This document shows positions 21,240 through 61,323 of a DNA stretch of 64,000 bases, one piece after another (within the stretch, counting starts at the first letter, position 1; each line of letters starts with the position of its first letter). The position numbers and the translations under genes were made by a program. Origin of the DNA: Cyclobacteriaceae bacterium (GTDB taxonomy: Bacteria; Bacteroidota; Bacteroidia; Cytophagales; Cyclobacteriaceae); assembly GCA_016787645.1 (NCBI GenBank), contig JAEUUF010000013.1, positions 1-64,000 on the forward strand. Reading direction: 5' to 3'. The notes below the pieces were generated by a model that saw only the letters and a program-made list of their open reading frames with translations, was not told the origin of the DNA and made no database searches.

Positions 21240-21302
21240 AGTTAGGAGTTAGGAGTTAGGAGTTAGGAGTTAGGAGTTAGGAGTCAGCAGTTAGGGAGTT
21301 AC
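21240..21302 (+). repeat. 7-bp tandem repeat, unit AGTTAGG
   Basis: Six perfect copies of AGTTAGG run from 21240 to 21281 (21240-21246 to 21275-21281), followed by one changed copy (AGTCAGC) and a further perfect one at 21289-21295. It lies between the stop of the exonuclease gene (21215) and the stop of the DUF2452 gene on the other strand (21299). Confidence 0.9.
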
Positions 21303-22087
21303 ACTTCTTTCCAGGTGTGATCGGCCAGGAGCTTAACGGCAGCTACGAAGGCTTTGAACGGGATTTTCGCTCCCCATTCAGCAGGGCTCACCATCGACAC
21401 CAAGTGAGCGCCGTCGTCTTTTTGATACAGGTAGTAAGTCTGACCGATTACCGGGTTGAAACTCAACTTGGCGTCGTAGATAATCATCGACAATTCCTTC
21501 CTCTGCTGAATCTCCTTCGCCTGGATGGCGAGCAGCTCAATTTGCTGTCGAATCTGGGTCAACTGCATGTTGGTCTGCTCTTCCATGGCCGTCAAGGCAT
21601 GATGACGAATCATACCCTCCTCATTGGGCCGGATCAATGCCCCCGAAACGGAAGCCGAGTAAGGCAGTACACTTAACTGCTTGTGATAGAATTCCACGTT
21701 CGTGCGTACTTCTCCCTCGGGCTGAGTAAAACGCTGCGTGACTTTCAGGTAGCCCTGTGGGGTAATTTCGTGGGCAACTTCAAGCGCTACCGAACCGGAC
21801 TTATGAAAAACAACCTGAAAATGGGTTGAGTCGGGGAAACTGGCCAAAACGGAATCAGCAATCTCGGGATCAGTGAATGAGTGCTCTTCTCCATCCGCTA
21901 CGAGGGCATATTCTGAGGAGAACGCATGATCCTCGAGGGTGACCCAGTTCATGGTGATCAGGATCTCCTTCTGCGTGTTGTTAAATGCTATCCGATATAT
22001 CCCGGACTTGGGCCGGGTGCCGTGTTCATAACTGCCCCGCTCCGGGAAGAGTTGCCATGCCGCCAGAAAGTTGTACGCTTCGGTCAT
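21299..22087 (-). CDS. DUF2452-like protein
   Basis: 262 residues, no signal peptide. The C-terminal half has a helix rich in Gln (QLTQIRQQIELLAIQAKEIQ) followed by the patterns FNPVIGQTYYLYQK and LVSMVSPAEWG, which I recognise from the DUF2452 family of Bacteroidota and some Proteobacteria. The N-terminal half (about 1-135) looks like a beta-rich lipocalin-type fold, with GIYRIAF and LITMNWVTLED, and could be a separate domain. Function unknown. Transcribed towards the exonuclease gene, with the heptad repeat between. Confidence 0.65.
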   Translation of the reverse strand: MTEAYNFLAAWQLFPERGSYEHGTRPKSGIYRIAFNNTQKEILITMNWVTLEDHAFSSEYALVADGEEHSFTDPEIADSVLASFPDSTHFQVVFHKSGSVALEVAHEITPQGYLKVTQRFTQPEGEVRTNVEFYHKQLSVLPYSASVSGALIRPNEEGMIRHHALTAMEEQTNMQLTQIRQQIELLAIQAKEIQQRKELSMIIYDAKLSFNPVIGQTYYLYQKDDGAHLVSMVSPAEWGAKIPFKAFVAAVKLLADHTWKEV

Positions 22088-22135
22088 ACAGAACGCGAAT
22101 CAAACGCGCCAGCTGACAACAATGTTTCGTCCCCT

Positions 22136-22164
22136 TCCAACTTCTAACTTCTATCTCCTCTCTC
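22136..22164 (-). repeat. Degenerate 7-bp repeat after the M48 gene
   Basis: Read on the plus strand as CTTCCAA, CTTCTAA, CTTCTAT, CTCCTCT, CTCCTAC: a 7-bp period with drift. On the minus strand it begins directly after the M48 stop codon and is purine-rich. Confidence 0.65.
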
Positions 22165-22965
22165 CTACTTCTTATAATACTGCATCGCCTCCGGAATCCA
22201 TCCTTTCAGGTCTGCAATCCGCGTTTCGTGGGAAGGGTGAGTAGAAAGGAACTCCGGGGGCTGCTGACCGCCGCTCATGGTGGCCATGCGTTCCCAGAAG
22301 AGCGGCGCCTGGTTTGGATCATAGCCCGCCATCGACATGAAGATCAACCCCATGTGATCCGCTTCCGATTCATGGGCGCGACTGAACTTCAGCATGCCAA
22401 TTTCTGTGCCCGCGCCAACCGCTTGCATAAGTAATTGCTGAGACCCTGTCGGGTTTTGACCCAGGGCCACACTTAATACATTGATGCCCATTTGCGCAGC
22501 CATCTGTTGGCTCATCCGTTCGCGGCCATGGTTGGCGATGGCATGCGCTACCTCGTGGCCCATCACGATCGCCACACCGGTTTCATCTTTCCAGATGGGG
22601 AGGATTGCGGTATAGAACGCAACCTTTCCACCGGGCATACACCACGCATTGACGGTCTTGGGGTCATCGATCAGGTTGAATTCCCAACTGAAACCCGTCA
22701 ACTCCGACGACTTGCCTGCATTGGCCATATATTTTTCCACTGCCTTCTGGATGGAAACGCCCACCCGGCGGATCATCGCTGTTTGTTCTGCATTTTTTGA
22801 CAAAGGGCCTTTGGCAATCACCTCCGAATATTGTTGTGCTGCCATGGGAATCAACTCCTCGTTGGAAATCAGGTTTAACTGCTGGCGGCCAGTAACGGCT
22901 ACGGTGGCACAGCCCGCTATCAAGAGCAGACCTGCCAGGAAAAGGGTTGTACGGGTTATCTTCAT
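22165..22965 (-). CDS. M48 family metallopeptidase, lipoprotein
   Basis: 266 residues. A lipoprotein signal peptide (LLLIAGC, Cys at about 19) places it on the periplasmic side of a membrane. The zinc site is complete: VMGHEVAHAIANHGRERM with HExxH near residue 137, and the third ligand in SRAHESEADHMGLIFM. The build matches the LoiP/YcaL/BepA-like periplasmic M48 proteases that act in outer-membrane protein quality control. No TPR domain follows, so it is the short form. Divergent from the FAH gene across an 80-bp gap. Confidence 0.92.
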   Translation of the reverse strand: MKITRTTLFLAGLLLIAGCATVAVTGRQQLNLISNEELIPMAAQQYSEVIAKGPLSKNAEQTAMIRRVGVSIQKAVEKYMANAGKSSELTGFSWEFNLIDDPKTVNAWCMPGGKVAFYTAILPIWKDETGVAIVMGHEVAHAIANHGRERMSQQMAAQMGINVLSVALGQNPTGSQQLLMQAVGAGTEIGMLKFSRAHESEADHMGLIFMSMAGYDPNQAPLFWERMATMSGGQQPPEFLSTHPSHETRIADLKGWIPEAMQYYKK

Positions 22966-23020
22966 AGGATCACAAACGCACGAAGTTAAATAGGATTACA
23001 AATAATCCTCCTTTTGTTAA

Positions 23021-23028
23021 TAGCTTTG
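23021..23028 (+). promoter_or_regulatory. Possible -7 box for the FAH-M23 gene pair
   Basis: TAGCTTTG is a perfect TAnnTTTG and stands 17 bp before the ATG at 23046. No TTG lies at the expected distance upstream. Confidence 0.35.
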
Positions 23029-23045
23029 CAAAAAACGGACCATTC

Positions 23046-23660
23046 ATGCGGATTTTTGCCATCGGCCGGAACTATGTGGAGCATATCCAGGAGCTGAATA
23101 ACGAGCGCCCGGATGAGCCAGTGATCTTTACCAAGCCGGATACCGCCATCCTCCGCAACAATGCCCCTTTTTATTACCCTTCCTTCTCAACCGACATCCA
23201 TCATGAGGTGGAACTGGTGCTCCGGATCTCCAAGGAAGGAAAGAACATCGAAGAGAAATTTGCCTCACGCTATTATGACGCCATTGGGGTAGGCATTGAT
23301 TTCACCGCCCGTGACCTTCAGCAAAAAGCCAAGGACAAAGGCCTGCCCTGGGACATCGCCAAGGGATTCAATGGCTCCGCCCCCATCAGCGACAGCTTTT
23401 TGCCAGTCGACAAGTTTGCCGACGTCAAGAATATCAATTTCAAACTGGAGGTAAACGGAAAACTAAAACAGCAGGGTAATACCAGTCTCATGCTTTTTCC
23501 GTTTGACTATATTATCGCCTACCTATCCAAATTTTTTACACTTAAGACAGGGGACTTGATTTTTACGGGAACTCCCAAGGGCGTTGGCCCTGTTACTCCC
23601 GGCGACACCCTGTCGGCTTACATTGAAAATGAAAAACTGCTGGAATTTCAGGTTAAGTAG
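23046..23660 (+). CDS. Fumarylacetoacetate hydrolase family protein (acylpyruvase-like)
   Basis: 204 residues, the short single-domain form. It begins MRIFAIGRNYVEH and contains HHEVELVLRI and GVGIDFTARDLQ, which supply the metal-binding Glu, Glu and Asp of the FAH fold, plus FTGTPKGVGPV near the end. Relatives such as YcgM and FAHD1 hydrolyse acylpyruvates or decarboxylate oxaloacetate. The gene for the M23 peptidase starts inside its last codons, so the two are translated from one message. Confidence 0.9.
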   Translation: MRIFAIGRNYVEHIQELNNERPDEPVIFTKPDTAILRNNAPFYYPSFSTDIHHEVELVLRISKEGKNIEEKFASRYYDAIGVGIDFTARDLQQKAKDKGLPWDIAKGFNGSAPISDSFLPVDKFADVKNINFKLEVNGKLKQQGNTSLMLFPFDYIIAYLSKFFTLKTGDLIFTGTPKGVGPVTPGDTLSAYIENEKLLEFQVK

Positions 23661-25545: not shown

Positions 25546-25547
25546 CC

Positions 25548-26102: not shown

Positions 26103-26124
26103 TTCAACCAGGTACTTGATAAAT

Positions 26125-26154
26125 AGCCCGGGACGACAAGCTCCGGGCTTTTTT
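26125..26154 (+). terminator. Rho-independent terminator after the peroxiredoxin gene
   Basis: A 7-bp GC-rich stem (AGCCCGG with CCGGGCT), an 11-nt loop and a run of six T follow the stop codon by 22 bp. It closes the FAH-M23-bcp transcript. Confidence 0.88.
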
Positions 26155-26202
26155 ATTTCCGTGTTTTTCGTACTTTTTGTCTTCCATACCTAATCTCCAC
26201 CC

Positions 26203-27642: not shown

Positions 27643-27661
27643 ATGAAGCGCTTCGTATGGC

Positions 27662-27691: not shown

Positions 27692-27707
27692 GCAGCAAAC
27701 ATTCTGA

Positions 27708-32962: not shown

Positions 32963-33012
32963 CACTGGTTACTGGTCACTGGTTACAGGTCACCGGTCAC
33001 TATTCACTGTAG
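32963..33012 (+). repeat. 7-bp tandem repeat, unit ACTGGTC
   Basis: Seven units in phase: ACTGGTT, ACTGGTC, ACTGGTT, ACAGGTC, ACCGGTC, ACTATTC, ACTGTAG. It starts 30 bp after the M28 stop and ends 17 bp before the next ATG, which argues that the open frame passing through it is not translated. Confidence 0.85.
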
Positions 33013-33029: not shown

Positions 33030-34250
33030 ATGAAAAGAAGTATTTTCTTTCTCCTCGCCATTTGCAGCTTTGCCTCTTGGGGTCAGCTACCTCAGAAGAA
33101 TTACGCGCTGACCAATGTCAATTTATTCAATGGCGTAGATAACCGAATTATCACCGGATCGGTGATCTATGTTAATGGGAAGATCGAGAAGATCGGCAAA
33201 GCCGGGGAAGCGATCCCTAAGGAGTACGAAATCATCGATTGCCAGAATAATTACGCCATTCCGGGGATGATGGACGCGCATACGCATATCAACAACCTCG
33301 AAAGTGCCAAGCGAGCACTGATGTCGGGGGTGACAACCTTCAGAACCGCGGGCGTTTCCGCTTACCAGGATGTTTCGTTGCGCGATCTTGCCAAAAGTGG
33401 TCGGATTGCGGGTCCTGTTGTGATACCCGCCGGAGTGTTTGTTACCCCTAATCCGGGCGAAACGATCCTGGCTGATCCGCGGCTCGGCGTCCTGATCAAT
33501 GGAGTCAATACGGATGATGAATTGAAATTACTGGTTAACGTAAATATTGATCGCGGTGCAGAAGTCATCAAGACCCGCGGTACTGAGCGTGCCGGCCTTC
33601 CGGAAACTGATCCTCGGCAACAATCGTACACCCAACGACAACTCAAAGTCATCATTGACGAAGCCGCCAAGCGGAATGTGCCTGTCATGATTCACGCCCA
33701 TGGCGATGAAGGTGCAAGGGCCGCCGTGGCCGCCGGAGCACGCAGTATCGAACACGGCACCTTCCTGAGCGACGAGACCCTGAAGCTCATGAAAGAAAAG
33801 GGTTGTTTCCTGGTACCCACGTACATCACGCTTGAAGATCTTACCAAACCTGGCGGCGATTATTCTGGCGCTGTACTGGAGTTGCGTGGACGATTTATGA
33901 TGCCCGCCGCCGAGAAAGTATTCAAGAAAGCCCACGCGCTGGGAGTCAAGATTGCCACCGGCGCCGACAACGACTATACCCCCGTCAGCACGAGCCGAAT
34001 CTCCCTCGAATGCGAGCATTACGTACGTATGGGTATGACAAACTTCGAAGCTATCCAATCAGCAACTGTCGTGGCTGCAGAATTACTGAGGATCCAGGAC
34101 AAGACCGGCAGAATCCAACCGGGCTTTGAGGCAGACATCGTTATCATCCCTGGCAACCCGCTGGAAGATATCCGGGCTCTGCAAGATGCCTTGATCGTGA
34201 TGAGCAACGGACACGTCGCTTTGAAGCGATTGCCGTTCGGGAAAGAGTAG
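33030..34250 (+). CDS. Exported amidohydrolase (imidazolonepropionase-like)
   Basis: 406 residues from the ATG at 33030, which opens a signal peptide (MKRSIFFLLAICSFASWGQ); the frame extends 33 codons upstream through the heptad repeat and is not used. Metal residues lie in MMDAHTHI, PVMIHAHGDEG, SIEHGTFL and ATGADNDY. A Lys that could be carboxylated is present in EVIKTRG. The relatives include secreted Xaa-Pro dipeptidase-like and organophosphate-hydrolysing amidohydrolases; substrate not predictable. Confidence 0.87.
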   Translation: MKRSIFFLLAICSFASWGQLPQKNYALTNVNLFNGVDNRIITGSVIYVNGKIEKIGKAGEAIPKEYEIIDCQNNYAIPGMMDAHTHINNLESAKRALMSGVTTFRTAGVSAYQDVSLRDLAKSGRIAGPVVIPAGVFVTPNPGETILADPRLGVLINGVNTDDELKLLVNVNIDRGAEVIKTRGTERAGLPETDPRQQSYTQRQLKVIIDEAAKRNVPVMIHAHGDEGARAAVAAGARSIEHGTFLSDETLKLMKEKGCFLVPTYITLEDLTKPGGDYSGAVLELRGRFMMPAAEKVFKKAHALGVKIATGADNDYTPVSTSRISLECEHYVRMGMTNFEAIQSATVVAAELLRIQDKTGRIQPGFEADIVIIPGNPLEDIRALQDALIVMSNGHVALKRLPFGKE

Positions 34251-34388
34251 GAATTAGGGGTCAGGGGTCAGGGACGAGGGGCTGGGGAAAAGGAGTAGGT
34301 GCTGGAGTCTGGGTAAGACAAGTGGCTTGCCATCCTGATGCCTCCAAAGAACAAACTTCTGACCCCTGACCCCCGACCCCTGATCCCT
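34251..34388 (+). repeat. Inverted pair of 7-bp repeats (GGGGTCA and TGACCCC)
   Basis: Left arm 34255-34283: AGGGGTC twice, then AGGGACG and AGGGGCT. Right arm 34358-34388: TGACCCC twice, then CGACCCC and TGATCCC. The arms can pair over about 25 bp with a ~75-nt loop. It lies directly after the amidohydrolase stop. Confidence 0.85.
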
Positions 34389-36359: not shown

Positions 36360-37745
36360 TCAGAGGGAGTAGTTCGTCAACTGATCATTTAGCTGCTCCA
36401 CCACTCGATCGAGATGTTCTTCCGTTGTATGGAAACTGGTCACGCACGCCCTAAGGACTTTTCCATGACGAGGAAGGGGTACTGTAGAAAGCCAGAATTC
36501 ACCTCCCAATTCTAGTCTGTTTCGCAAGTCGTCGGCAGAAATGAGTCCTGACAACACCTGCGGATGGGTAAAATTGAGCACACCTACCGGGCTGTCATTT
36601 ACAATCTTCCAGCCGCTTGCAGTTAATCGGTCTCTTAAATGTCCTGTCAATTTGCATTGGTATTCCATCTGGGCGATCAGGGCTTCCTCTCCCTTTTCTG
36701 CCAGTGTCATGAAGAGCTTTAGTCCAATGCAACGTCTGCTCCACTGGAGAGTTGTAGCATAGGGTTCGGTTTGTGCCTGGGAGGGCATGTAAACGGCCGG
36801 GATACCGAACGCCACTTGCACAGCCTCCGGATGTCGTGTAAAAAACATCCCTGCACCCATGGCGACCGAGAACCACTTGTGCGCATCGATGGTAACCGAA
36901 TCCGACAACTCAATGCCACTGAGGTGGTGACGGAGGGCTTTGGACAAGACTGCAGCACCTGCCCATGCCGCATCCACATGAAACCACATATTGTATTTTT
37001 TCGCCAGCGCTGCCAACTCAGGTAAGGAATCGATGGCGCCACTTGCCGTTGTTCCTGCCGTCCCGATAATCACTGCCGGCCTGAAGCCTGCGCTAATGTC
37101 GCTCTCTATCTGTGACTCCAGCGTGGCAAGGTTTATCCGCCATGTGTCATCCGTTTCAATCTTGCGCAGAGATTTCAGTCCAAGCCCGATATTCTTGACA
37201 ATCTTATCGAACGAATTGTGTCCCGCAACTGACATATAGACCATCGGCCGCCTTTCCAGAGAGCACACTCCTTCATTCACATACGCAGGGACTTGCTTGG
37301 CCAACGCCACCAACAGCGCGGTATGATTGGCTTCCGATCCTCCAGAGGTAAAATTGCTGAAGGTCTCCGGCTCTGGATATCCGATTTTTCCGGAAATGTA
37401 TTTCAGCACATGACTTTCTATCTCATTGGCTGCCGGGGCGTGCGACCACACGGCCAGCTGAGGATTGTACAGGGCCACCAACGCATCTGCTACAACGGAA
37501 GCTTCTGTGGTTGCCGGGATGAATAATCCCAAATACCCGGGATGTGACACGTGCAAACTCCATTTCGAAAAGAGGTCACTTACTTCCTGGGTAAGCAAGT
37601 CGAGGGGAAGAGGCTTCCCAAAATCATACTTCTTCAACGATTCCCTGATGACCTCAGGAGCGACCTGATTAGAAATAGATGCTGACGAAAGTCCGCCCGG
37701 GTACGCCCTTACAATCTCTTCAAGTACGTTCCACGTAGTCTTCAT
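36360..37745 (-). CDS. PLP-dependent decarboxylase (group II, aromatic amino acid decarboxylase-like)
   Basis: 461 residues. The fold-type I decarboxylase pattern is clear: HVSHPGYLGLFIPATTEASV, FTSGGSEANHTALLVAL, GTAGTTASGAIDSL, FHVDAAWAGAAVL and SVTIDAHKWFSV, where the Lys holds PLP. Group II members decarboxylate tryptophan, tyrosine, DOPA, glutamate or diaminobutyrate; I cannot pick one. Its start overlaps the stop of the hydrolase gene by 4 bp, so the two are translationally coupled. Confidence 0.9.
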   Translation of the reverse strand: MKTTWNVLEEIVRAYPGGLSSASISNQVAPEVIRESLKKYDFGKPLPLDLLTQEVSDLFSKWSLHVSHPGYLGLFIPATTEASVVADALVALYNPQLAVWSHAPAANEIESHVLKYISGKIGYPEPETFSNFTSGGSEANHTALLVALAKQVPAYVNEGVCSLERRPMVYMSVAGHNSFDKIVKNIGLGLKSLRKIETDDTWRINLATLESQIESDISAGFRPAVIIGTAGTTASGAIDSLPELAALAKKYNMWFHVDAAWAGAAVLSKALRHHLSGIELSDSVTIDAHKWFSVAMGAGMFFTRHPEAVQVAFGIPAVYMPSQAQTEPYATTLQWSRRCIGLKLFMTLAEKGEEALIAQMEYQCKLTGHLRDRLTASGWKIVNDSPVGVLNFTHPQVLSGLISADDLRNRLELGGEFWLSTVPLPRHGKVLRACVTSFHTTEEHLDRVVEQLNDQLTNYSL

Positions 37746-38623
37746 TCCATCCTGTTTGGTGTTTTAATCCTTTCTGCTATTCTTCCGAATTGGTTGCACA
37801 ACACAGATAAGTGCGCCTCCCCTTTGAACGTGATGAGCTTCGCATTTGGAATTTGGCCAACATGGACTCGTACCAGCTCCACTGGAAGGTTTTTGTCCTG
37901 TTCACCATGAAAGAAAGTTATTGGAAACGTGATATCGCTAAAGCTGAAGCCAAACGCGGCAACGAACAATCTTAAATCCCACGTAACCCCTCTCATGCTC
38001 CGCAGCGATTCATTTACTGCCTGCTCCAGAACTTCCAGACGGTTGCTATCCATGATTGCTTGATAATCCGGCAGAGGCATCATCCGCTGTGGGCGCTTCG
38101 GTCTTTTCTCTCTTGGTTCGGTTGCCGGGCTTCTCATGGCATTTAGCAGGATCGGTAAAAGAAAAGGAAACTTTTCCGTCACGATCCAAAAAAGGTTGAA
38201 TGGAAATTGCAGGTAACGCCTGGTTTGAGGGAGGTTCATCTGCCAACCACCAGATACCACGACAGCGGATAGTAATCGCTCCGGTATCCGAGTCGCACAG
38301 GCGGTTACATAAGGTCCTCCCCCCGAGTTACCCAGCAAAGAGAAGTTTTCCAGCTTCAAATGGTCCGCCAAGGAAATAACGTCAGACGGCCAATCCATGA
38401 ATTTCCGGCTGACCTGAAAATCAGAGTGCCCTATGCCTGGTCGGTTTGGTGCGATGATCCGGAGACCATGCCTGCAAAATGCTTCTTCGCCAACCAGCAA
38501 AGGTTCCAGGCAGGAAGAAGGAGCTCCATGGAAATAAAATACTGGCATTCCATCGCCCTTCCCGAATTCCATATAGCTCAGCCGGCGGCCACCCGCGAGT
38601 GTGATGTATTTCATGTGCGTCAT
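37742..38623 (-). CDS. Alpha/beta hydrolase
   Basis: 293 residues from the ATG at 38623; a TTG at 38635 and an ATG at 38614 are in frame. The oxyanion strand FYFHGAPSS, the nucleophile elbow GNSGGGP, an Asp in FFHGEQDKNLPVE and a His in KGEAHLSVL give a full catalytic triad. Substrate unknown. Coupled with the decarboxylase, which suggests they act on related molecules. Confidence 0.85.
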   Translation of the reverse strand: MTHMKYITLAGGRRLSYMEFGKGDGMPVFYFHGAPSSCLEPLLVGEEAFCRHGLRIIAPNRPGIGHSDFQVSRKFMDWPSDVISLADHLKLENFSLLGNSGGGPYVTACATRIPERLLSAVVVSGGWQMNLPQTRRYLQFPFNLFWIVTEKFPFLLPILLNAMRSPATEPREKRPKRPQRMMPLPDYQAIMDSNRLEVLEQAVNESLRSMRGVTWDLRLFVAAFGFSFSDITFPITFFHGEQDKNLPVELVRVHVGQIPNAKLITFKGEAHLSVLCNQFGRIAERIKTPNRME

Positions 38624-38649
38624 CGCGAAAGACAACTCTTCTTCACAGC

Positions 38650-49528: not shown

Positions 49529-49942
49529 TCAGTTGTTAGACAATATACTTTTCAATTCCTTTTCAGTGGGGACCTTTGATAGGTAATCATTTGCCTCCTT
49601 GGTAAGGACCACATATCTGCCAGTCTGAATACATCCAGAAGTTTCTTTCATTTTTCCGACCTTAATTGATTCAGTACCCATGTTCCAGTCTCCGCTTTCC
49701 CTCTCTGTGGCCCACCAAACATCTACCGCCTTTGTGCACTTGTTGGTAAGCTTCAACATGTAGCCGCACCCGGATAAATATTTCTGCTCAATGGTGATGC
49801 AGTCCCGGTACTTACCGAGGTCCTCAAACTTAGCGACCTTAAGTACCCGGCTTGAGACGTCACCCTCAACCACCTTTAACTCCTGGGCCTGGATTGATGC
49901 AGCGACCAGAAAGAAAGCAACTGACAAAATGTAAGTTTTCAT
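49529..49942 (-). CDS. Small exported protein of unknown function
   Basis: 137 residues with a signal peptide (MKTYILSVAFFLVAASIQAQ). The mature part has four cysteines (in DCITIE, SGCGYML, NKCTKAV and SGCIQTG) that could form two disulfides, and a beta-rich pattern. No family recognised. It is the first gene of a two-gene unit with the HExxH protein and may be its partner or inhibitor; that is a guess. Confidence 0.7.
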   Translation of the reverse strand: MKTYILSVAFFLVAASIQAQELKVVEGDVSSRVLKVAKFEDLGKYRDCITIEQKYLSGCGYMLKLTNKCTKAVDVWWATERESGDWNMGTESIKVGKMKETSGCIQTGRYVVLTKEANDYLSKVPTEKELKSILSNN

Positions 49943-50283
49943 AGAATTGAATTTAGGTAATTTTTTTCGCTTGCCAGAACAGCAAATATGATGCGCTAAC
50001 CTTCCAAAACCCCCTCCCTACTCGTTTAACCAACGCCTTATTCATGGAATTACCCGAAGGAGGATCAGGGGTGTATTTAGACGGGGTAGATCCACTTCAA
50101 AAATTGGATCCCACTTTGTCTAAAGTGGTTAATGTAGCAGGTCCTAAGTCACTTATTCATTGCCACTTACCTATCGTTGATCAAGTTGGTTATCAGACTG
50201 TTACAAGAAAAATTGTATACAGAAAGTTTGGTTGACCGAATTATAATCGCCTAATTTGTTCGTGCCGACCCCATAAAATCAAA

Positions 50284-50304
50284 AGAGGACCTTTCGGGTC
50301 CTCT
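50284..50304 (-). terminator. Terminator hairpin of the small RNA
   Basis: Perfect 8-bp stem with a 5-nt loop. On the minus strand it is followed by TTTTGATTTT; on the plus strand no T run follows, which sets the direction. Confidence 0.6.
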
Positions 50305-50402
50305 CAAGATAGTTTGGAAGTCAGCCTCGGTGTGTGCTAAGCAATGTCCCGCAAGACCTTGTAATCACCACACCGGGGATACTTCCTCAAGGCTAATTAA
50401 AT
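50284..50402 (-). ncRNA. Structured small RNA candidate (6S-like?)
   Basis: Read on the minus strand, about 118 nt. A long irregular hairpin can form: GGAAGU with ACUUCC, then CGGUGUG with CACACCG, CAA with UUG and GUC with GAC, with internal loops between. AGCCU and AGGCU offer a competing outer stem. At the 3' end is a perfect 8-bp terminator stem (AGAGGACC with GGTCCTCT on the plus strand, 50284-50304), followed on the minus strand by a T-rich tail. A TTG-19-bp-TATTCGTA promoter-like pair lies just upstream. The size and long bulged hairpin recall 6S RNA; I did not recognise a sequence signature of any family. Confidence 0.45.
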
Positions 50403-50432
50403 TACGAATACTTTACAACACTTTGTATACAA
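50403..50432 (-). promoter_or_regulatory. Possible promoter of the small RNA
   Basis: Minus strand: TTG (50432-50430), 19-bp spacer, TATTCGTA (50410-50403). Spacing is that of Bacteroidota sigma-A promoters; the -7 box matches only in part. Confidence 0.35.
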
Positions 50433-50615
50433 TTTTGAGTTCGTTGTTTGATCTTGAACCAGAATGGGCTCAGGCTTCTTGAATTTGACCAAAATTGATC
50501 TAGTCTGCAGAGCCCTATATTTTTCCAGGTTAACCTAAGTCAGCATGCATTCAGTTCTGTTTCGAAGAACAGCCAGGTGAATCCGCCTTCTTGGTTGTTG
50601 AGAGCCCCACACTTG

Positions 50616-50654
50616 AAACACTGACTGACCCCTGACCCCCAGCCCCCGACCCCT
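50616..50654 (-). repeat. 7-bp repeat, unit TGACCCC (plus strand)
   Basis: TGACCCC twice, then CAGCCCC, CGACCCC. G-rich on the minus strand, directly beyond the T run of the second RNA candidate. Confidence 0.75.
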
Positions 50655-50658
50655 CAAT

Positions 50659-50768
50659 AAAAAAACCCACCCAGATTGGAGAGGTGTTTCTGAACCTCAA
50701 TTATGACAAGTTTTGAGCTGCTTCCAGCCGCAACCTTCCGCTGTTAACCTGCTTTTTGGGCGAGGTCC
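50659..50768 (-). ncRNA. Second structured RNA candidate, unassigned
   Basis: Read on the minus strand, about 110 nt. GACCUC near the 5' end pairs with GAGGUU about 70 nt later, enclosing CAGGUUAACAGCGGAAGG and GGAAGCAGC, which recall parts of the SRP RNA domain IV loop without matching it fully. A hairpin with CACC/GGTG and a run of seven T ends it at 50659. The direction is also supported by the G-rich minus-strand heptad repeat that follows, as seen after genes here. Confidence 0.3.
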
Positions 50769-50789
50769 CGTCCCGATATGATCGGGACG
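50769..50789. repeat. Perfect 9-bp hairpin CGTCCCGAT
   Basis: CGTCCCGAT, 3-nt loop, ATCGGGACG. No T run on either side. It borders the second RNA candidate. Confidence 0.7.
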
Positions 50790-51077
50790 TGGATGCGGCC
50801 TGATTTTGACTGGTCACTTCGCTCGGTATTGTTTTAACGTTAGGTTCAGCAAACGTGTCCCAAATCCGAGTGGATTTCTTGATTCAAACGTATGCAAAAG
50901 TTCGGCGGTGTCAAGTATTGATTTTAGTATAGTTTTTTTGTACTCCCGAAAAAATGATCCGTGCGCCGAAGTATCAAAGTGTGAACGTGCCCGGGCGCAA
51001 ACTAAATAGTGTGCCAAAGTTTTGACCGGGATGTTGGTGATGGAACCGCTATCTTTATGGCCAAATCAAGATCAATC

Positions 51078-51494
51078 ATGGCTATCAAACGCACAGCAAA
51101 TGCCGTCTGGAACGGACCGGGCAAAACCGGCAACGGAACGGTCTCCACACAGAGTGGAATCCTGGACAAAACACAATACAGCTACCTTTCTCGCTTTGAG
51201 AGCGGAACAGGTACCAACCCGGAAGAGCTGGTGGCTGCCGCCCATGCCGGGTGCTTTTCCATGAAGCTCGCCTTCAACCTCCAGGCTGCAGGTTTCACCG
51301 CCACTGAAATCAAGACCAACTGCGAAATTGTGCTCGAAGACGGTACGATCACTGCGTCCAACCTGACGCTCGATGCCAGCATTCCGAACATTACCAAAGA
51401 AAAGTTCGAGGAACTGGCGAAGGACGCGGAACTCAATTGCCCAATCTCCAAACTTCTGAAGACTAAAATCAACCTGAAAGCCACACTCCGGTAA
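51078..51494 (+). CDS. OsmC family peroxiredoxin
   Basis: 138 residues from the ATG at 51078 (MAIKRTANAVWNGPGKTG); an ATG at 51057 is also in frame. OsmC patterns: YSYLSRFESGTGTNPEELVAA, HAGCFSMKLAFNL with the first active Cys, and ELNCPISKLL with the second Cys. The family reduces organic hydroperoxides, usually with lipoyl or thiol donors. Probably monocistronic. Confidence 0.92.
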   Translation: MAIKRTANAVWNGPGKTGNGTVSTQSGILDKTQYSYLSRFESGTGTNPEELVAAAHAGCFSMKLAFNLQAAGFTATEIKTNCEIVLEDGTITASNLTLDASIPNITKEKFEELAKDAELNCPISKLLKTKINLKATLR

Positions 51495-51554
51495 TCGGCG
51501 GGATGACGTGAGCATCAACCCATCTAAAAATTTTCAAATCTTCAAATTTTCAAC

Positions 51555-52622
51555 TTGAACTTCACTCCCGGCCCCTCCGAACTCTATTTCACAGTTCCGG
51601 ACCACTTGCGCCGCGGCATCCGGGATGGCGTTGCCTCCCTCTCACACCGCAGCACTCCATTTGAAAGAATCTTCCGCGAGGCCACTGAAGGCCTGAGGGA
51701 ACTGCTTGGGCTCCCCCATGGGTTCCATATCGCGTTCACCGCGTCAGCCACGGAAACGTGGGAACGCAGCATTCAAAGCCTTGTGGGAGAAACCTCGTAC
51801 CACCTTGTCAACGGTGCCTTCTCGAAGCGTTTCTTTGAAATCAGTCAACAATTGGGGAAGAAGGCCACCGCGCTGACCGTACCTGAAGGCAGTGGCTTCG
51901 AAGCAGTCAACTTGCCACCCGGGCAAGAACTTTTTGCGCTTACCCACAATGAAACAAGCACAGGTGTTTCGCTCACGCCAGCCATTCTCGGCGCAGCAAG
52001 GAAACAGCATCCGGAATCCCTGGTCATTGTCGATGCCGTGAGCTCACTGCCCTACGTCGACCTTGACTATTCGGCGATTGACTCGGTCTTCTTCTCCGTC
52101 CAAAAAGGATTCGGTCTCCCCGCGGGACTCGGGGTGTGGATCTATAACGAGCGGTGTGTGGAGAAAGCCCATCAATTACAATCGAGGGGTAAATCAATCG
52201 GTACCTACCATAGCCTCATCACGCTTCACAGCTTTGCCCGCAAGTACCAGACACCCGAGACGCCCAACGTTCTTGCTATCTTCCTCCTTGGCCAGGTGGT
52301 AAGAGATTTTCTCCGCCGTGGCATCCAGGTGATCCGCAAGGAGACCGAATACAAAGCCGCGGTCCTGTACGGCGTGATGGATCGACGGGAGGATATCTCC
52401 CCTCTGGTCACATCACCTGAACACCGATCTAATACCGTGATCACCATATCCTGCCCGGGCTGCCTCAACGAACTCAAGGCCCACCTCGAATCCCAGGGAC
52501 TGCAACCCGGGGATGGCTATGGCGCCGGTAAAACAACGCAGTTGAGGTTTGCGAATTTTCCAGCACACTCGAAGGAAACCTATGAGATGCTGGCCGACGC
52601 GGTCGAACAGTTTAAAGTCTAA
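51555..52622 (+). CDS. Class V aminotransferase (phosphoserine aminotransferase-like)
   Basis: 355 residues, starting with TTG: the sequence NFTPGPSELYF follows at once and no ATG precedes it. Fold-type I class V: FTASATETWERSI, VDAVSSLPYVDLDYS with the PLP-binding Asp, and SVQKGFGLPAGLGVW with the PLP Lys. It closes with GYGAGKTTQLRFANFPAHS. The family includes SerC and alanine-glyoxylate aminotransferases; SerC would supply the step missing from the SerB-SerA fusion, but the assignment is not firm. Confidence 0.85.
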   Translation: MNFTPGPSELYFTVPDHLRRGIRDGVASLSHRSTPFERIFREATEGLRELLGLPHGFHIAFTASATETWERSIQSLVGETSYHLVNGAFSKRFFEISQQLGKKATALTVPEGSGFEAVNLPPGQELFALTHNETSTGVSLTPAILGAARKQHPESLVIVDAVSSLPYVDLDYSAIDSVFFSVQKGFGLPAGLGVWIYNERCVEKAHQLQSRGKSIGTYHSLITLHSFARKYQTPETPNVLAIFLLGQVVRDFLRRGIQVIRKETEYKAAVLYGVMDRREDISPLVTSPEHRSNTVITISCPGCLNELKAHLESQGLQPGDGYGAGKTTQLRFANFPAHSKETYEMLADAVEQFKV

Positions 52623-52683
52623 GGTTTAAAGTTGAAGATACCTCTCACCGACCTTAAACTTTCGACTTTAGACTTTAGACTAG
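52616..52683 (+). repeat. Inverted pair of 7-bp repeats (GTTTAAA and TTTAGAC)
   Basis: Left arm: GTTTAAA, GTCTAAG, GTTTAAA, GTTGAAG, overlapping the stop codon of the aminotransferase gene. Right arm: CTTAAAC, TTTCGAC, TTTAGAC, TTTAGAC. The arms can pair as an imperfect hairpin that could serve as a terminator. Confidence 0.8.
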
Positions 52684-53315: not shown

Positions 53316-53726
53316 ATGATCCGCTTAGACGAAATACCGAAAAAGACGCCGTTTGAGGCCCCGGAAGGCTATTTTGACAAGCTTCCTGGTCGTATCCAGG
53401 CCCGCATCGCTACTCCCGAGCCAGCCATGGCCTGGGGTCGTATGGCACTACGGTATGCCCTGCCGGTGACCGTGCTGGCCGTGGCCGCCTTCTTCCTGTG
53501 GTCGCGCCCCGAGCTCTCCCCCGAAGAAATGCTCGCCCGCGTCGACTCCGAACAACTGGTGGCTTACCTCCAGGAGGCGGACCTCAATACGGATGACCTG
53601 CTTGAAGCGGTTCCCCTTGAACCCGCGGAGGCGGAAGCTATCGAGCAGGGAACTATGGAAGAGATTACGTTGGACGACCTCGATCTTGACTTGCTCATTG
53701 ATGAATTTGATAGCGTGGGGAAATGA
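53316..53726 (+). CDS. Single-pass membrane protein, likely anti-sigma partner
   Basis: 136 residues. A cytoplasmic start (IRLDEIPKKTPFEAPEGYFDKLP) is followed by one transmembrane helix (about 46-65) and an acidic C-terminal part of short hydrophobic motifs. The segment PEGYFDKLPGRIQARI is common in Bacteroidota proteins encoded after ECF sigma genes. No zinc-binding anti-sigma motif is present. Role inferred from position. Confidence 0.7.
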   Translation: MIRLDEIPKKTPFEAPEGYFDKLPGRIQARIATPEPAMAWGRMALRYALPVTVLAVAAFFLWSRPELSPEEMLARVDSEQLVAYLQEADLNTDDLLEAVPLEPAEAEAIEQGTMEEITLDDLDLDLLIDEFDSVGK

Positions 53727-53760
53727 GGGGCGAGGGGTCAGGGGTTAGGGGTTAGGGAAT
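53726..53760 (+). repeat. 7-bp repeat, unit AGGGGTT
   Basis: GCGAGGGG, then TCAGGGG, TTAGGGG, TTAGGGA in phase with a 7-bp period, beginning at the stop codon of the anti-sigma-like gene. Confidence 0.85.
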
Positions 53761-53798
53761 AGTGAGAGTCTTAAGTTTCAAACTTTGAACGTGAAATA

Positions 53799-54326: not shown

Positions 54327-54339
54327 AAAGCCGCCCTGA

Positions 54340-55305: not shown

Positions 55306-55378
55306 CCGGCCGCAGGTATAAAACCCGGTGGAGTGATTCGGGGAATTTGATACTTTGGCGGCACTTTAATCCGCTTTC

Positions 55379-57241: not shown

Positions 57242-57242
57242 G

Positions 57243-59030
57243 CTATTTTATCGGCTTACCATCGCGATCGAATACGATGGCAAAAACTTCGCCGATAGAG
57301 CTCTTCGTTTTAATGATGATCTCGGAGCTCTCTTTGGTAAAGACCAACTCGATGGGCAACTGGTCCAGCTCCAGGTTAACGCTCCACGCAAGTCCTTCGA
57401 CTTTATAGATCTTGGTCAGCGTGGCCTGGTACTTGTCCTTCATTTTCGTTTCCTGGTAGGTAAGCACAAAGAAGACAAGTCCAAGTTCATCCTGGATGGC
57501 CATGGCTTTGGTTACCGGGAGATAGCGCTTCTTAAACGCATCCGGGTTTACTTTATAAGTCGCCTTTACCGCCACTTTGCGCGATGGCGAAATGGTGTAG
57601 AAATATCCGGTTCCCAAAGAATCAGCAAAGGTCAATCCCGAGGTGAACTTCTCTTCCTGCTGAACCAGTGGTTTGAACTTGCTTTGCTCAGGAGCAGGTG
57701 ACATCAGCGGGATGGAATCTGCCCCATCCACAATCCACTGCAGTGCATCCGTCTTGCGCTTGATCGCGGACTCCCGGCGAATGATTTCGCGCAGCGCCAA
57801 TTCGCGTGTACCTCGAATCAGGCTTTTCAGAACTGCAGTACTTCCGTAGGCGGTGTTCACAAAATGCCGATAGTTGGCCAACTCCGCCTCTACATCCCGC
57901 TCCACCAGGTAGTTGGCGATGCTGTCCAATCGGTGGGCCAGCGCGATCTCCTTTTTCAATCCTGCCACTTGCAGCGCTAAACTCGCGGAGTCTCTCAGCG
58001 GCCGGTTTTCCGAAACTTGTGATCCAAATTCAATTTCAGCTTCCTTCATTTGAAAGACTTGTATCGGCAACGGGTTGGGATCGATTTTCAGCAACTCCGG
58101 AAAACCCTTGCCGCGCAGGATCCGCAAATCCTGGACAACCGATACGGAATCCTTTTTGATTTGCTGCTGCAACTTGTTGAGCTCAGCGTCACGGGCGACC
58201 AACTGGTCCCGAAGAGGTTGAATTTCCTTCCGGATCACTTCTTCCGTAGATAACGCCCAGCGCTTGAAATCCTGGAGCTTGATATCATCTGCATAGAAAT
58301 CAACGGCCGACTGTTGGCGTTTGAAGTCAAGGATGTCCTGCGGATTGAGGTCCTGGTTGTAGCCAATCTTTCCCATGACTTTGGCGGTGGCCTTGTAATC
58401 ATTGAAATGAATGTGGCATGAATCGTATACGGAAGCAAGGTGATTAAGACGGAGGGTAAGCGAATCGTCCGATTGTAGGTAGAGTTGCTTCATGTCGGGG
58501 TAAAGCGCCTGAATTTTTCCATAGAGCCTCAGGCTCTGGAGATAGCTCGCCTCCGCCGCCTTGAACTGCGATTTCAGTTTGAGGGCCAGCTTTGCGCGGT
58601 CTTTGAGTTTCATCCGGGTCTCTATATCGAGGAGCACATCGGAGTGCTTCACACCAAAATTGCCCGTGCGCAGGTCCCGACGGTTGTACATCTGGTAATA
58701 GTCCTCATTCCTGGACACTTCCTTTTCGGTCATACCCTTGTTCGCCAGGGCAAAGTAGAGTACCGCAGAATCGAGCAGGGAGGAATAGCGCTCGGTTTCC
58801 TTCAGGATGTCGGCATGTGCCGCCTTGTCTTCAAGGATGAGGCCCATGTAGAGGTAGGCATTCGGATTATCTGTATTATCCTTGAGGTATTTCTTGAGAA
58901 AGGGTTCCGCTTCGCTGTATTGCTTGGCGCTGAGCAGGACAAAGAGGTCTTTGTACTTAATCTTCTGCCCGGTGGCGGCGGAAGCGACCAGTAGTGCCAG
59001 AATGAGTGAGAGAAGAGTCCGGATTTTCAT
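57243..59030 (-). CDS. Exported TPR and coiled-coil protein
   Basis: 595 residues with a signal peptide (1-21, ending ATGQ). Residues 25-110 form TPR-like helices (LLSAKQYSEAEPFLKKYLKD), the centre (about 120-440) is largely helical with coiled-coil segments (QLVARDAELNKLQQQIKKD), and the last ~130 residues are beta-rich. No family name is known to me. It is probably conserved in Cytophagales with a periplasmic role. Confidence 0.7.
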   Translation of the reverse strand: MKIRTLLSLILALLVASAATGQKIKYKDLFVLLSAKQYSEAEPFLKKYLKDNTDNPNAYLYMGLILEDKAAHADILKETERYSSLLDSAVLYFALANKGMTEKEVSRNEDYYQMYNRRDLRTGNFGVKHSDVLLDIETRMKLKDRAKLALKLKSQFKAAEASYLQSLRLYGKIQALYPDMKQLYLQSDDSLTLRLNHLASVYDSCHIHFNDYKATAKVMGKIGYNQDLNPQDILDFKRQQSAVDFYADDIKLQDFKRWALSTEEVIRKEIQPLRDQLVARDAELNKLQQQIKKDSVSVVQDLRILRGKGFPELLKIDPNPLPIQVFQMKEAEIEFGSQVSENRPLRDSASLALQVAGLKKEIALAHRLDSIANYLVERDVEAELANYRHFVNTAYGSTAVLKSLIRGTRELALREIIRRESAIKRKTDALQWIVDGADSIPLMSPAPEQSKFKPLVQQEEKFTSGLTFADSLGTGYFYTISPSRKVAVKATYKVNPDAFKKRYLPVTKAMAIQDELGLVFFVLTYQETKMKDKYQATLTKIYKVEGLAWSVNLELDQLPIELVFTKESSEIIIKTKSSIGEVFAIVFDRDGKPIK

Positions 59031-59075
59031 TTTGGAATACTAACTTGCACCAAATTTACTTAATAATTGGACGTA

Positions 59076-59687
59076 ATGAGCTACAAAAGTCGCACCAAAG
59101 CGCTCGGCCGTACCATCTTTTCATGGATCAAGCCTGTCCTGGTTGCGGGTATCCTCTTGTTGTTCCTTCGTGTTACCGGGCTAATCGGCGCCGTGTCCCA
59201 TGCGACGCAATGGACGCTCCTGCAGACGGGAATGCGCGACGCCGATGAGGAAGTGGATGAAGCCCCTGCCGTATTTGATTACAATTTCACTATCAAAGAT
59301 CTTGAAGGGAATCGCGTGCCCTTCGGCAGCTTCAAGGGCAAAGTCATTTTCCTCAATATGTGGGCCACCTGGTGCGGACCTTGTCGCGCCGAAATGCCGG
59401 GCATACAAAGCCTTTATGAGAAAGTAGACAAGAAGAAGGTTGTTTTTATCATGCTTTCCATAGACAAAGACAGCGATCTGACTCGGGTGGTAGATTACCT
59501 GGCGGCCAAATCGTTTACATTCGGAGCATTCCTGCCGTCCGGCTATCTGCCCGAACAATTGCAGGTACCTTCCATTCCTACCACTTTCATTATCTCACCC
59601 GAAGGAAAAGTCGTAAAGAAAGAAGTGGGCACCATGCAGTATGATACTCCGGAGTTTCGCAACTTCCTTGAAGGTCTGAGCCGTTAG
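59076..59687 (+). CDS. TlpA-like thioredoxin, membrane-anchored
   Basis: 203 residues from the ATG at 59076; a TTG at 59067 is in frame. One N-terminal membrane helix (about 18-37), then a thioredoxin-like domain (about 70-203) with the active site WATWCGPCRAEMPG and the cis-Pro in IPTTFIISPEGKV. TlpA/ResA proteins reduce disulfides outside the cytoplasm, for example in cytochrome c maturation. No cytochrome genes are nearby. It precedes the lipoprotein gene by 17 bp. Confidence 0.9.
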   Translation: MSYKSRTKALGRTIFSWIKPVLVAGILLLFLRVTGLIGAVSHATQWTLLQTGMRDADEEVDEAPAVFDYNFTIKDLEGNRVPFGSFKGKVIFLNMWATWCGPCRAEMPGIQSLYEKVDKKKVVFIMLSIDKDSDLTRVVDYLAAKSFTFGAFLPSGYLPEQLQVPSIPTTFIISPEGKVVKKEVGTMQYDTPEFRNFLEGLSR

Positions 59688-59704
59688 CCTGGTCTACTCC
59701 CCTG

Positions 59705-60358
59705 ATGAAGCCCTTTGTTGTAGTAGTCCTCCTTTTCTTGTTCGCCTGCCAGGGAGTCTCTGATACTACCTGGAAGAGAGTGCGTACCGAACTTAGCGAC
59801 ATCCAAGAAAAAGACAAGCGATATCGCATTCCGATGGATTCCGTCGCACGCAAGGAGGGATGGAAGTCCAAGCGCATTGAAGAACTTTGGACGAACCAAC
59901 GAATCCTCGACTCCGCCAACCTTGTCGCTGTCGACCGGCTTCTCTCCCGATACGGGTATCCACCGGCGGCCAAGGTAGGTCCATTGAGCCAGGTACCCTT
60001 CGATGTCATCCGTCATGCCGATGACTCTGTCCAGGCAATCTATTGCGAAATCATCGTGGGAGCAGGTAAAAACGGGGACCTCCGTATGTCCGAAGTGGCT
60101 TCCTTCTACGACCAGGTATTGATGATGGAGAGAGTTCCACAGGAATATGGCACCCAGGTGTGGATTGAATACAAAAAAAATCCCGAAACCGGGGAGCGAT
60201 ACGATTCAGTTTACCTTTGGCCTGTGCGTGACATGCCAAATATCGACGCGAAGCGACTCGCGGCTGGGCTCGATTCTTTGTCATCGCACCTGCGCCGGTT
60301 TGGTATTGATCCATCGAAAGGGTACCTCATCCGGAAATCGGGCGGAGCACCCCATTGA
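59705..60358 (+). CDS. Lipoprotein, DUF6624-like
   Basis: 217 residues with a lipobox (LLFLFAC, Cys15). The mature part has ELSDIQEKDKRYR, ELWTNQRILDSANLVAVDRLL and RYGYPPAAKVG, which resemble the DUF6624 family of exported Bacteroidota proteins. Function unknown. Probably cotranscribed with the thioredoxin gene. Confidence 0.65.
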   Translation: MKPFVVVVLLFLFACQGVSDTTWKRVRTELSDIQEKDKRYRIPMDSVARKEGWKSKRIEELWTNQRILDSANLVAVDRLLSRYGYPPAAKVGPLSQVPFDVIRHADDSVQAIYCEIIVGAGKNGDLRMSEVASFYDQVLMMERVPQEYGTQVWIEYKKNPETGERYDSVYLWPVRDMPNIDAKRLAAGLDSLSSHLRRFGIDPSKGYLIRKSGGAPH

Positions 60359-60362
60359 TCCC

Positions 60363-60388
60363 TTGCCCCGGCATTAATGCCGGGGCAA
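60363..60388 (+). repeat. Perfect 26-bp palindrome between the lipoprotein and sirtuin genes
   Basis: TTGCCCCGGCATT and its exact reverse complement form an uninterrupted palindrome starting 4 bp after the lipoprotein stop. It is GC-rich enough for a stable stem but no T run follows. It lies inside the longer sirtuin frame and argues against the upstream TTG start. Confidence 0.8.
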
Positions 60389-60417
60389 AGGAATATGGCA
60401 ACATAATAAAGGGAGGA

Positions 60418-61098
60418 TTGAAAAAACTCGTTGTCTTAACCGGTGCCGGCGTGAGCGCGGAGAGTGGACTGGCCACCTTCCGCGATGCAGGTGGCCTGTG
60501 GGAAGGCTATCGCATTGAAGAGGTCGCTACGCCGGAAGCTTGGCATCGCAACCCGGAAATGGTCCTGGAATTTTATAACCAGCGACGGAAGGCGGCTCTT
60601 AAAGCTGAACCCAATGAAGCGCACCGCATTCTGGCTGAGCTGGAAAAACAATTCAAGGTCACCATCATCACGCAGAATGTCGACGACCTCCACGAAAGGG
60701 CCGGCTCATCTCACGTTGTTCACCTCCATGGAAAGCTGTTTGAATCGCGAAGCACCCTGGATCCTTCACTCGTTTACCCGATTCAAGGCTGGGAACTAAA
60801 GTTGGGCGACCGATGTGAACGAGGCTCTCAACTTCGACCCAACATCGTATGGTTTGGCGAGATGGTTCCGATGATGGACACGGCCGTGGACATCGTCAGC
60901 CAGAGCGATCTTTTCCTGGTCGTTGGCACCTCCCTTGTCGTCTACCCTGCCGCGGGGCTGGTGGACTATGTGCCCAACGGCGTTCCCAAGTACATCGTGG
61001 ATCCGCGCATTCCCGAAGGCCGTTCCGGTCCCGACACGTATTTCATTCCAGAGAAGGCAACAGTGGGGATGAGGATGTTCAGGGAGAAGGTGGGATAG
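60418..61098 (+). CDS. cobB: Sirtuin (Sir2 family), SIRT5/CobB-like protein deacylase
   Basis: 226 residues from the TTG at 60418 (KKLVVLTGAGVSAESG); the frame extends 21 codons upstream through the palindrome. NAD site GAGVSAESG and TQNVDDLHERAG; catalytic His in HLHGK (about 104). Tyr53 and Arg56 in FYNQRR match the residues that let SIRT5 and CobB accept succinyl- and malonyl-lysine. Of the four zinc-binding cysteines usual in the family only one Cys remains (in GDRCERGSQLRP). Confidence 0.9.
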   Translation: MKKLVVLTGAGVSAESGLATFRDAGGLWEGYRIEEVATPEAWHRNPEMVLEFYNQRRKAALKAEPNEAHRILAELEKQFKVTIITQNVDDLHERAGSSHVVHLHGKLFESRSTLDPSLVYPIQGWELKLGDRCERGSQLRPNIVWFGEMVPMMDTAVDIVSQSDLFLVVGTSLVVYPAAGLVDYVPNGVPKYIVDPRIPEGRSGPDTYFIPEKATVGMRMFREKVG

Positions 61099-61323
61099 GG
61101 GTCAGGGACGTGGGTTCAGGGGTTAGGGGTTAGGGATCAGGGCTTTAATTCATCATTCAAAAAATCAGTATCTCACCAAGTGTACTAAGAAGTCTCATCC
61201 CAGTGACTAGTACACAGTAACTAGTACCTAGTGCCCAATTCCAATGCTTGATCGCAACCACCTTAGTCCAAAAACTCACATCTGTGATATCTCCACTAAC
61301 CCCTCGTCCCTAACCCCTGACCC
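61099..61323. repeat. Three blocks of 7-bp repeats between the sirtuin and S9 peptidase genes
   Basis: Block 1 (61099-61140) has AGGGGTC and AGGGGTT units in the sirtuin direction. Block 2 (about 61190-61235) has ACTAGTA, CACAGTA, ACTAGTA, CCTAGTG. Block 3 (61296-61323) has TCCCTAA, CCCCTGA, CCCCTAC, which is G-rich in the direction of the S9 gene and touches its stop. Blocks 1 and 3 can pair. No gene seen. Confidence 0.8.

Follow-up and report, generated by a model that had tools for sequence, protein, structure and literature searches.

We analyzed a 64,000-bp stretch of the genome of a Cyclobacteriaceae bacterium (GCA_016787645.1, contig JAEUUF010000013.1, positions 1 to 64,000; here named the window), in which an original prediction had pointed to 7-bp tandem repeats placed right after stop codons. 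These arrays likely belong to a family of small mobile elements, as their arms or as derivatives that lack the gene; the elements carry a gene of the PF05635 family (S23, 23S_rRNA_IVP; a four-helix bundle) and would insert at stop codons. The original prediction had missed that such words recur at other places in this genome as the inverted arms flanking PF05635 genes. A full element would measure about 500 bp and consist of a G-rich tandem array with units of 7, 8, or rarely 9 bp, the PF05635 gene, and the same array inverted, a unit without a known transposase. It would insert at a gene's stop codon. As a result, the stop often falls into the register of the first unit, and from either end of the spacer the G-rich strand points inward. 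A word is retained among close relatives of a gene and not among distant ones, and slippage alters the number of units. Lone arrays would descend from full elements through gene loss, and the PF05635 protein would bind the arms and take part in movement.

PF05635 genes were seen between inverted arrays in array-rich regions of the genus. Among 52 such genes from 23 genomes of the genus, drawn from a longer list and partly from genomes picked as array-rich, 32 have an array of period 7 to 9 within 400 bp; arrays stand on both sides of 19, and all 19 pairs are inverted. The corresponding figures for 992 control genes of the genome under study (here named G000; 4.02 Mb, 28 contigs), which include the PF05635 genes and their neighbors, are 142 with an array, 23 two-sided, and 8 inverted. 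G000 itself has seven PF05635 hits, six of them above the family cut-off; all seven have arrays within 450 bp, each with a different word, and six have them on both sides. The sixth of these genes lies within a period-8 TRATTCGR inverted pair (C15:149059-149612) that was initially seen as a bare pair. As read from the sequence, the element at C15:788584 fills its spacer, with a left arm starting at a GAGTAG end and a right arm reaching an ATG.

Arrays without a gene resemble these arms. At a similarity of 0.75, 13 of the 63 lone arrays of G000 match flank words of the same genome, compared to 1.9 (maximum, 8) for column-permuted words. With arms from a wider scan, 23 of the 63 match, compared to 6.05 for foreign words (equal numbers of words, 300 draws; maximum, 11). 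The same holds for the genome G023, where 4 of 6 lone arrays match own flank words versus 0.76 for foreign ones.

Heptamer repeats known as short tandemly repeated repetitive (STRR) sequences were described in cyanobacteria. A tblastn search with the PF05635 protein matched 36 plasmid records, chiefly cyanobacterial, e.g., of Nostoc and Calothrix. We examined 24 plasmid regions, of which 23 came from these records and the other came from a second search with 37 records, and applied a uniform array test, allowing periods of 4 to 14, to plasmid, viral-contig, and control loci. An array was found at 23 of the 24 plasmid loci (19 two-sided, 16 inverted) and at 17 of 18 viral-contig loci (11 two-sided, 11 inverted), while 82 control coding sequences of two Nostoc plasmids yielded 30 with an array, 5 two-sided, and 1 inverted. 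No phage matched the one cyanobacterial PF05635 query used. Bracketed PF05635 genes thus occur in Bacteroidota, cyanobacterial plasmids, Gemmatirosa, Azospirillum, and viral contigs, with flank words, each inverse on the other side, such as GGGAACA in Nostoc, AGGGTGT in Calothrix, the period-8 word GAGGGCAG in Gemmatirosa, and GAGGACAGA in Azospirillum. For 21 plasmid regions, the annotated neighbors were protein genes; the other three of the 24, two without annotation and one lacking a downstream gene, were left out.

Elements with arms on both sides (51 loci) span a median of 507 bp (range, 408 to 779), with flank periods of mainly 7/14 and 8 and a median of 4.4 units per array. Of 122 flank arrays, 111 have the G-rich strand pointing inward; the arms within an element are not independent of each other. 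On the protein tree, in which many forks are poorly resolved, the period label clusters, with 7 changes compared to 12.3 in shuffles (0 of 200 as low). Protein identity and word similarity are correlated for period 8 (rho, 0.49; 13 of 2,000 permutations as high), and words are alike mainly between proteins that are more than ~60% identical. The words seem to pass on together with the PF05635 gene while changing rapidly. Of the 12 lone arrays on the Nostoc plasmid pNsp_a, 9 bear the plasmid's own word, a share that 1 of 69 other loci also reaches.

Four filled plasmid loci were searched for relatives with both flanks and a shorter interior, and one relative each was read. In the cleanest pair, two cyanobacterial plasmids with 98.1% identity over 1,591 aligned bases, a unit of 428 bp consisting of arm, gene, and arm is inserted at the stop codon of the upstream gene, with GTAA, which contains the stop, at both junctions. 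Judged from the search listing alone, five more records have coverage matching this empty site. In a second pair (91.7% identity), 417 bp are inserted at the upstream stop codon, and TTCTA marks each junction. In these two cases, target duplication and shared microhomology would both account for the junction repeats. In addition, stretches of 50 and 74 bp with the plasmid's own word are present in only one of two Nostoc plasmids (L375 versus L412, at ~162 to 292 of L375), which indicates that gene-less arrays come and go too.

We scanned the window plus 60 further stretches of G000, i.e., 1,240,075 bp with 1,047 called genes, 676 spacers, and 110,414 spacer bases. Genes were called with an in-house hexamer caller that may miss some, such as a 297-codon frame at 37742 to 38635 of the window. 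A self-match scan (threshold, 10) found 44 spacer arrays of period 7, 16 of period 8, 3 of period 9, and 2 of period 10, and none in this sample of periods 4 to 6 or 11 to 13. Dinucleotide shuffles gave 0.5, 0.5, and 0.1 arrays for periods 7, 8, and 9 and fewer than one at every period up to 30. The arrays of the original prediction are therefore real, and the period is less strict than the 7 bp it had assigned. Coding sequence harbors just three period-7 arrays in 1.127 Mb, and little periodicity was left beyond the detected arrays.

The 68 arrays occupy 59 of the 676 spacers. Codirectional spacers account for 41 of these (out of 433), convergent ones for 14 (out of 88), and divergent ones, where arrays are rare, for 4 (out of 155). 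Enrichment at stop codons was borne out, as 37 of 63 arrays in spacers with a stop edge lie within 30 bp of the stop (null, 26.4 ± 3.0); arrays within 30 bp of a start are fewer than expected (9 of 53 in spacers with a start edge; null, 16.7 ± 3.0). In codirectional spacers alone, 31 of 48 arrays are closer to the stop (P = 0.06). Of the arrays nearest to a stop, 35 of 47 have the G-rich strand directed away from the nearest gene, and of those nearest to a start, 18 of 20 do, with one tie excluded. The G-rich strand therefore is the coding strand at stops, as had been claimed, and the opposite strand near starts. The orientation rule proposed for 3' ends is real, yet it is no rule of transcript 3' ends, since the same orientation holds at start edges. 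An inverted partner, and with it hairpin potential, was found for 22 of the 68 arrays. When the units outside the gene were used to extend the word as far as the stop codon, the true phase fitted best in 17 of 34 stop-edge arrays, compared to 4.7 expected.

Within the window, arrays were located by Tandem Repeats Finder (TRF) and the self-match scan and compared with PF05635 flank words (similarity and P value in parentheses):

21224..21301, plus strand: AGTTAGG period-7 array, ~11 copies, between convergent stops; TRF and self-match (match not significant: 0.63, P 0.41)
22134..22166, minus strand: period-7 array with AGTTAGA as its minus-strand word, located at the stop codon of an M48 peptidase gene, stop in register; self-match (not significant: 0.52, P 0.88)
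32963..33009, plus strand: ACTGGTY period-7 array 3' of an M28 peptidase gene; TRF and self-match (resembles the C3:191911 PF05635 flank word: 0.66, P 0.037)
34248..34273, plus strand: AGGGGTC period-7 array at an amidohydrolase stop, left arm of an inverted pair; self-match (C15:788584 element: 0.77, P 0.013)
34359..34388, minus strand: CTGACCC inverted partner of 34248-34273, 35 bp ahead of the next start; TRF and self-match (0.84, P 0.040)
50625..50653, minus strand: CTGACCC period-7 array in a long spacer, distant from both genes; self-match (0.80, P 0.027)
51528..51556, minus strand: period-8 array, TTGAAAAT, reading away from a gene start; self-match (not significant: 0.64, P 0.31)
52615..52637, plus strand: degenerate period-7 left arm, AAGTCTAAGGTTTAAAG, stop codon included; sequence reading (not significant)
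52650..52681, minus strand: ACTTTAG right arm, inverted partner above shuffles; TRF and self-match (not significant)
53725..53765, plus strand: AGGGGTY period-7 array, stop codon in register; TRF and self-match (0.74, P 0.023)
61090..61142, plus strand: AGGGGTY period-7 array 3' of a SIR2 gene, stop in register; TRF and self-match (0.79, P 0.030 for 61112-61142)
61201..61227, strand not assigned: weak 14-bp repeat containing ACTAGTA, 1.9 copies; TRF (not significant: 0.56, P 0.56)
61296..61331, minus strand: CTAACCC array at an S9 peptidase stop, inverted partner of 61090-61142; TRF (0.76, P 0.063)

Period-7 arrays were thus recovered at most of the predicted positions (those starting at 21224, 32963, 34248, 34359, 52650, 53725, and 61090), while that at 51528 has period 8, and of the ACTAGTA repeat predicted near 61190, a weak 14-bp repeat was found. 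Six AGGGGTY-type arrays resemble the right arm of the C15:788584 element (0.74 to 0.84; five with P 0.013 to 0.040, the sixth with P 0.063). The window holds no Rfam match and no convincing PF05635 remnant (best E value, 0.007), and its arrays are probably gene-less relatives of S23 elements, derived from full ones. The spacer from 49942 to 51078 (~1.1 kb, no called gene) contains the lone C-rich array at 50625 to 50653, and a PF05635 remnant was not found there. A DUF2452 gene (21299 to 22087) lies between the related, inverted period-7 arrays at 21233 to 21294 and 22134 to 22166, so genes besides PF05635 can sit between arms. The nearest named relatives of the M28 peptidase are 75 to 85% identical and mark the host as a Cyclobacteriaceae-like member of the Bacteroidota, not a cyanobacterium.

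Grouping the 68 arrays by word gave eleven families with at least two members plus three singletons, and 98 of 1,128 word pairs are similar, compared to 14.7 by chance. The impression of a different heptamer at each locus did not hold: AGGGGTC, AGGGGTT, and, by linkage, the AGTTAGG array at 21224 to 21301 belong to one single-linkage family, approximately AGRRGTY, with 19 arrays in the sample. Three families strictly read away from the gene (AGRRGTY, 18 of 19; period-8 TRATTCGR, 8 of 8; GGTACTAG, 4 of 4), whereas most others larger than two are of mixed orientation. By reading, TRATTCGR, AATGTAA, and similar families have no G-runs, and no motif is common to all families.

Congeners carry other words than G000, and AGGGGTYAGGGGTY of G000 is absent from all 57 relatives searched (35 congeners). 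At the threshold used, no array followed the same gene in congeners for the M48 peptidase (0 of 29), an exonuclease (0 of 29), the amidohydrolase (0 of 5), or the M28 peptidase (0 of 15); SIR2 loci had one in 4 of 29, with different words. By eye, a degenerate, sub-threshold period-8 run, approximately TGAAGTGT, starts at the exonuclease stop of the congener G014 (L152), where G000 has the period-7 AGTTAGG array. Near the SIR2 gene, the sister genomes G013 (C117) and G024 (C1) have arrays of a single word, CTGGTTTC and its inverse, in successive spacers of one and the same region. Between these sisters, which are 91 to 95% identical in aligned blocks, three period-7 arrays differ by 21, 14, and 7 bp, i.e., by 3, 2, and 1 whole units. 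The length of one period-8 array is unchanged, and another region has gaps of 1, 7, and 2 bp; two further comparisons with larger rearrangements or gaps were left out. Local spread of words along the chromosome was not significant.

Other ideas on origin and effect of the words were rejected. Variation among words (258 transitions, 103 transversions) is unremarkable and does not support a wobble-preserving pattern. A general excess of stop codons in the words gave a mixed picture on the strand reading away from the gene (period 8, 14 of 17 versus 6.5; period 7, 18 of 48 versus 14.9). Truncation of genes by invading arrays is not apparent, as the end residue is the same in 24 of 29 M48, 5 of 5 amidohydrolase, and 14 of 15 M28 orthologues; the SIR2 protein is 1 to 5 residues shorter in G000 than in 27 of 29 orthologues, and slight trimming of this gene by the array is possible. 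Ku, considered together with nonhomologous end joining as an origin of end-added repeats, is encoded in 31 of 40 genus genomes and is non-discriminating.

Several observations weigh against a mobile PF05635 element as the source of the arrays. In the genus, 20 of the 52 PF05635 genes have no array within 400 bp, and on plasmids, 8 of the 24 genes fail the two-sided inverted test, three of them having two-sided arrays that match better directly; the plasmid loci also include near-copies (three pairs). In the third filled/empty comparison, which is less clean, the insertion lies two codons within the upstream gene, and the fourth relative (L410) is not empty and keeps both arms without the PF05635 gene. 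The register effect is carried by arrays that overlap the stop, since those with a gap of at least 0 gave 4 of 20 versus 2.7 expected. Correlation of protein and word is weak at period 7 (rho, 0.10; 60 of 2,000 permutations as high), lone arrays in G024 match own flank words in 1 of 5 cases, not above foreign words, and on pNe_5, 3 of 9 lone arrays bear the plasmid's own word, a share equalled by 5 of 69 other loci. In the window, 6 of the 13 arrays, including AGTTAGG, have no significant match to any PF05635 flank word, and the P values of the other seven (0.013 to 0.063) are uncorrected for 13 tests.

The arrays could instead be plain simple-sequence repeats, in which slippage favors units of 7 to 8 bp and which are neutral and purged from genes and promoters, with PF05635 as an incidental neighbor. 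Whole-unit indels between G013 and G024, the exclusion of arrays from coding sequence and divergent spacers, and the lack of most arrays after the same gene in congeners agree with this, and slippage was suggested for heptamers by Mrazek and colleagues, as quoted in PMC4692102 and PMC4679880. Against it stand the words common to many loci, the inverted partners, the main families with their strict orientation, the PF05635 genes of several phyla with arms on both sides, and the arm-gene-arm insertions. Weakened by the PF05635 association, this explanation appears very unlikely, and spread by slippage, as originally proposed, is partly right, with the whole-unit indels in its favor. A function at 3' ends, as terminators, mRNA 3' protection, G-quadruplexes, or regulator sites, would suit the placement after stops and the hairpin potential, and paired hepta- and octamer sites of Geobacter metallireducens are described as predicted binding sites of a global regulator (PMC2700814). 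The arrays are not conserved, as most congener loci lack them, and the orientation rule is equally valid at start edges. Terminators, also part of the original prediction, are unlikely because separate terminator-like hairpin-plus-T stretches lie, by eye, downstream of several arrays (C15 258853, C15 270245, L034:5000) and because arrays are absent after the same genes in nearly all congeners examined. G-quadruplexes are no common theme, given the TRATTCGR and AATGTAA families without G-runs. Both were rejected as general themes, and a 3'-end function as a whole is hardly credible.

Alternatively, the arrays could have come first, pre-existing inverted arrays being landing sites in whose loops PF05635 genes settle. 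Plasmid L410, with both arms and no gene, could be such a pre-entry state, and one third of the lone arrays are in inverted pairs. On the other hand, arms and gene are jointly absent from the empty site of the cleanest pair, some PF05635 genes bear arms even in array-poor congeners such as G028, G061, and G005, and close relatives share a word while the period follows the protein tree. We regard this order of events as unlikely and favor movement of arms and gene as one element.

Among known systems, repetitive extragenic palindromic (REP) sequences and their REP-associated tyrosine transposases (RAYTs) offer a parallel: a master gene lies between inverted repeats, copies of which stand on their own in numerous spacers, and each lineage has its own word. 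The elements described here likewise have a gene between inverted copies of a dispersed repeat. Unlike in REP/RAYT, the flanked gene, the only one checked, belongs to PF05635 and does not encode a tyrosine Y1 (HUH) transposase, and the arms are periodic arrays rather than single imperfect palindromes. GGGAATC and GGGGAYT heptamers with the same placement and orientation were described in Xanthomonas and Nostoc by Rehm et al. in 2015 (PMC4692102), and the orientation rule is thus not new. As in that account and in cyanobacterial STRRs, the repeats are tandem heptamers in spacers, sense near stops and antisense near starts, often in inverted pairs and with a genome-typical word. The account by Rehm et al. 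concerns G-rich words only, explains them by G-quadruplexes, reports them absent from plasmids of the studied strains, and, in the parts consulted, ties no gene to them, whereas the arrays here are of any word composition, have periods of 7 to 9, are linked to PF05635, and occur on plasmids too. They share the over-representation in spacers and the orientation of the STRR class, but several families lack G-quadruplex-forming words.

The closest relatives by gene content are the intervening sequences (IVSs) of 23S rRNA genes, in which an S23/PF05635 open reading frame (ORF) lies in the loop of an inverted-repeat stem (PMC4990558). According to that paper, one species has tandem heptamers before the S23 ORF in 2 or 3 copies depending on the strain, earlier authors suggested a mobile element, and the S23/IVS protein has no known function. 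The S23 ORF between inverted repeats is common to both, but IVSs lie inside 23S rRNA genes, while the elements here lie between protein genes, start at stops, and have tandem arrays as both arms; their plasmid neighbors are protein genes, and the window has no Rfam match. Among the kinds considered, we set the elements apart as a new one because the IVS differs in location and REP/RAYT in its transposase, although all S23 elements may instead be counted as one kind. A link of PF05635/S23 genes to dispersed heptamer arrays and stop-codon insertion was not found in the open-access literature searched, with subscription titles mostly outside. Novelty lies in connecting S23 genes, dispersed heptamers, and insertion at stop codons; the component parts themselves are known.

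The solved PF05635 relatives 2gsc (XCC0516 of Xanthomonas) and 2rld have five chains each, and XCC0516 is described as a homopentamer (PMC4990558). A ring that reads 4 to 5 units per arm is an attractive guess. The Avd protein of diversity-generating retroelements is said to resemble PF05635 (4DWL versus 2GSC; PMC10053308), and this resemblance hints at a possible RNA route. More broadly, PF05635/S23 could be a widespread mobile class with no known transposase that targets stop codons and recognizes its own 7- to 8-mer arms with one unit per subunit of the pentameric ring (4 to 5 units per arm), possibly by an RNA route as for Avd, and the heptamers of cyanobacteria, Xanthomonas, Geobacter, and Bacteroidota and the rRNA intervening sequences could all be relatives; we offer this wider proposal tentatively and consider it rather doubtful.

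Three cyanobacterial plasmids (L365, L377, L378) have PF05635 genes in cas loci, either in the interval from cas6 to cas4 or in that from cas10/cmr2 to cmr3, and arrays of heptamers or octamers flank these genes on one side or both. PF05635 was listed in 2013 among functions frequent in cas loci, at the same positions, in a section that does not mention repeats (PMC3936711). The array flanks fit insertion into cas operons, and presence of the gene there may reflect insertion rather than function.

Heptamer repeats in cyanobacteria, Xanthomonas, Geobacter, and others have had no accepted origin, and the link to PF05635 supplies a source. It also gives the S23 protein a candidate partner, its own arms, and offers a reason for the occurrence of S23 genes in cas and conjugation operons. 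The findings point to a mobile element aimed at stop codons without a recognized transposase, for which insertion just past the stop, between the genes of an operon, would be a gentle mode of spread.

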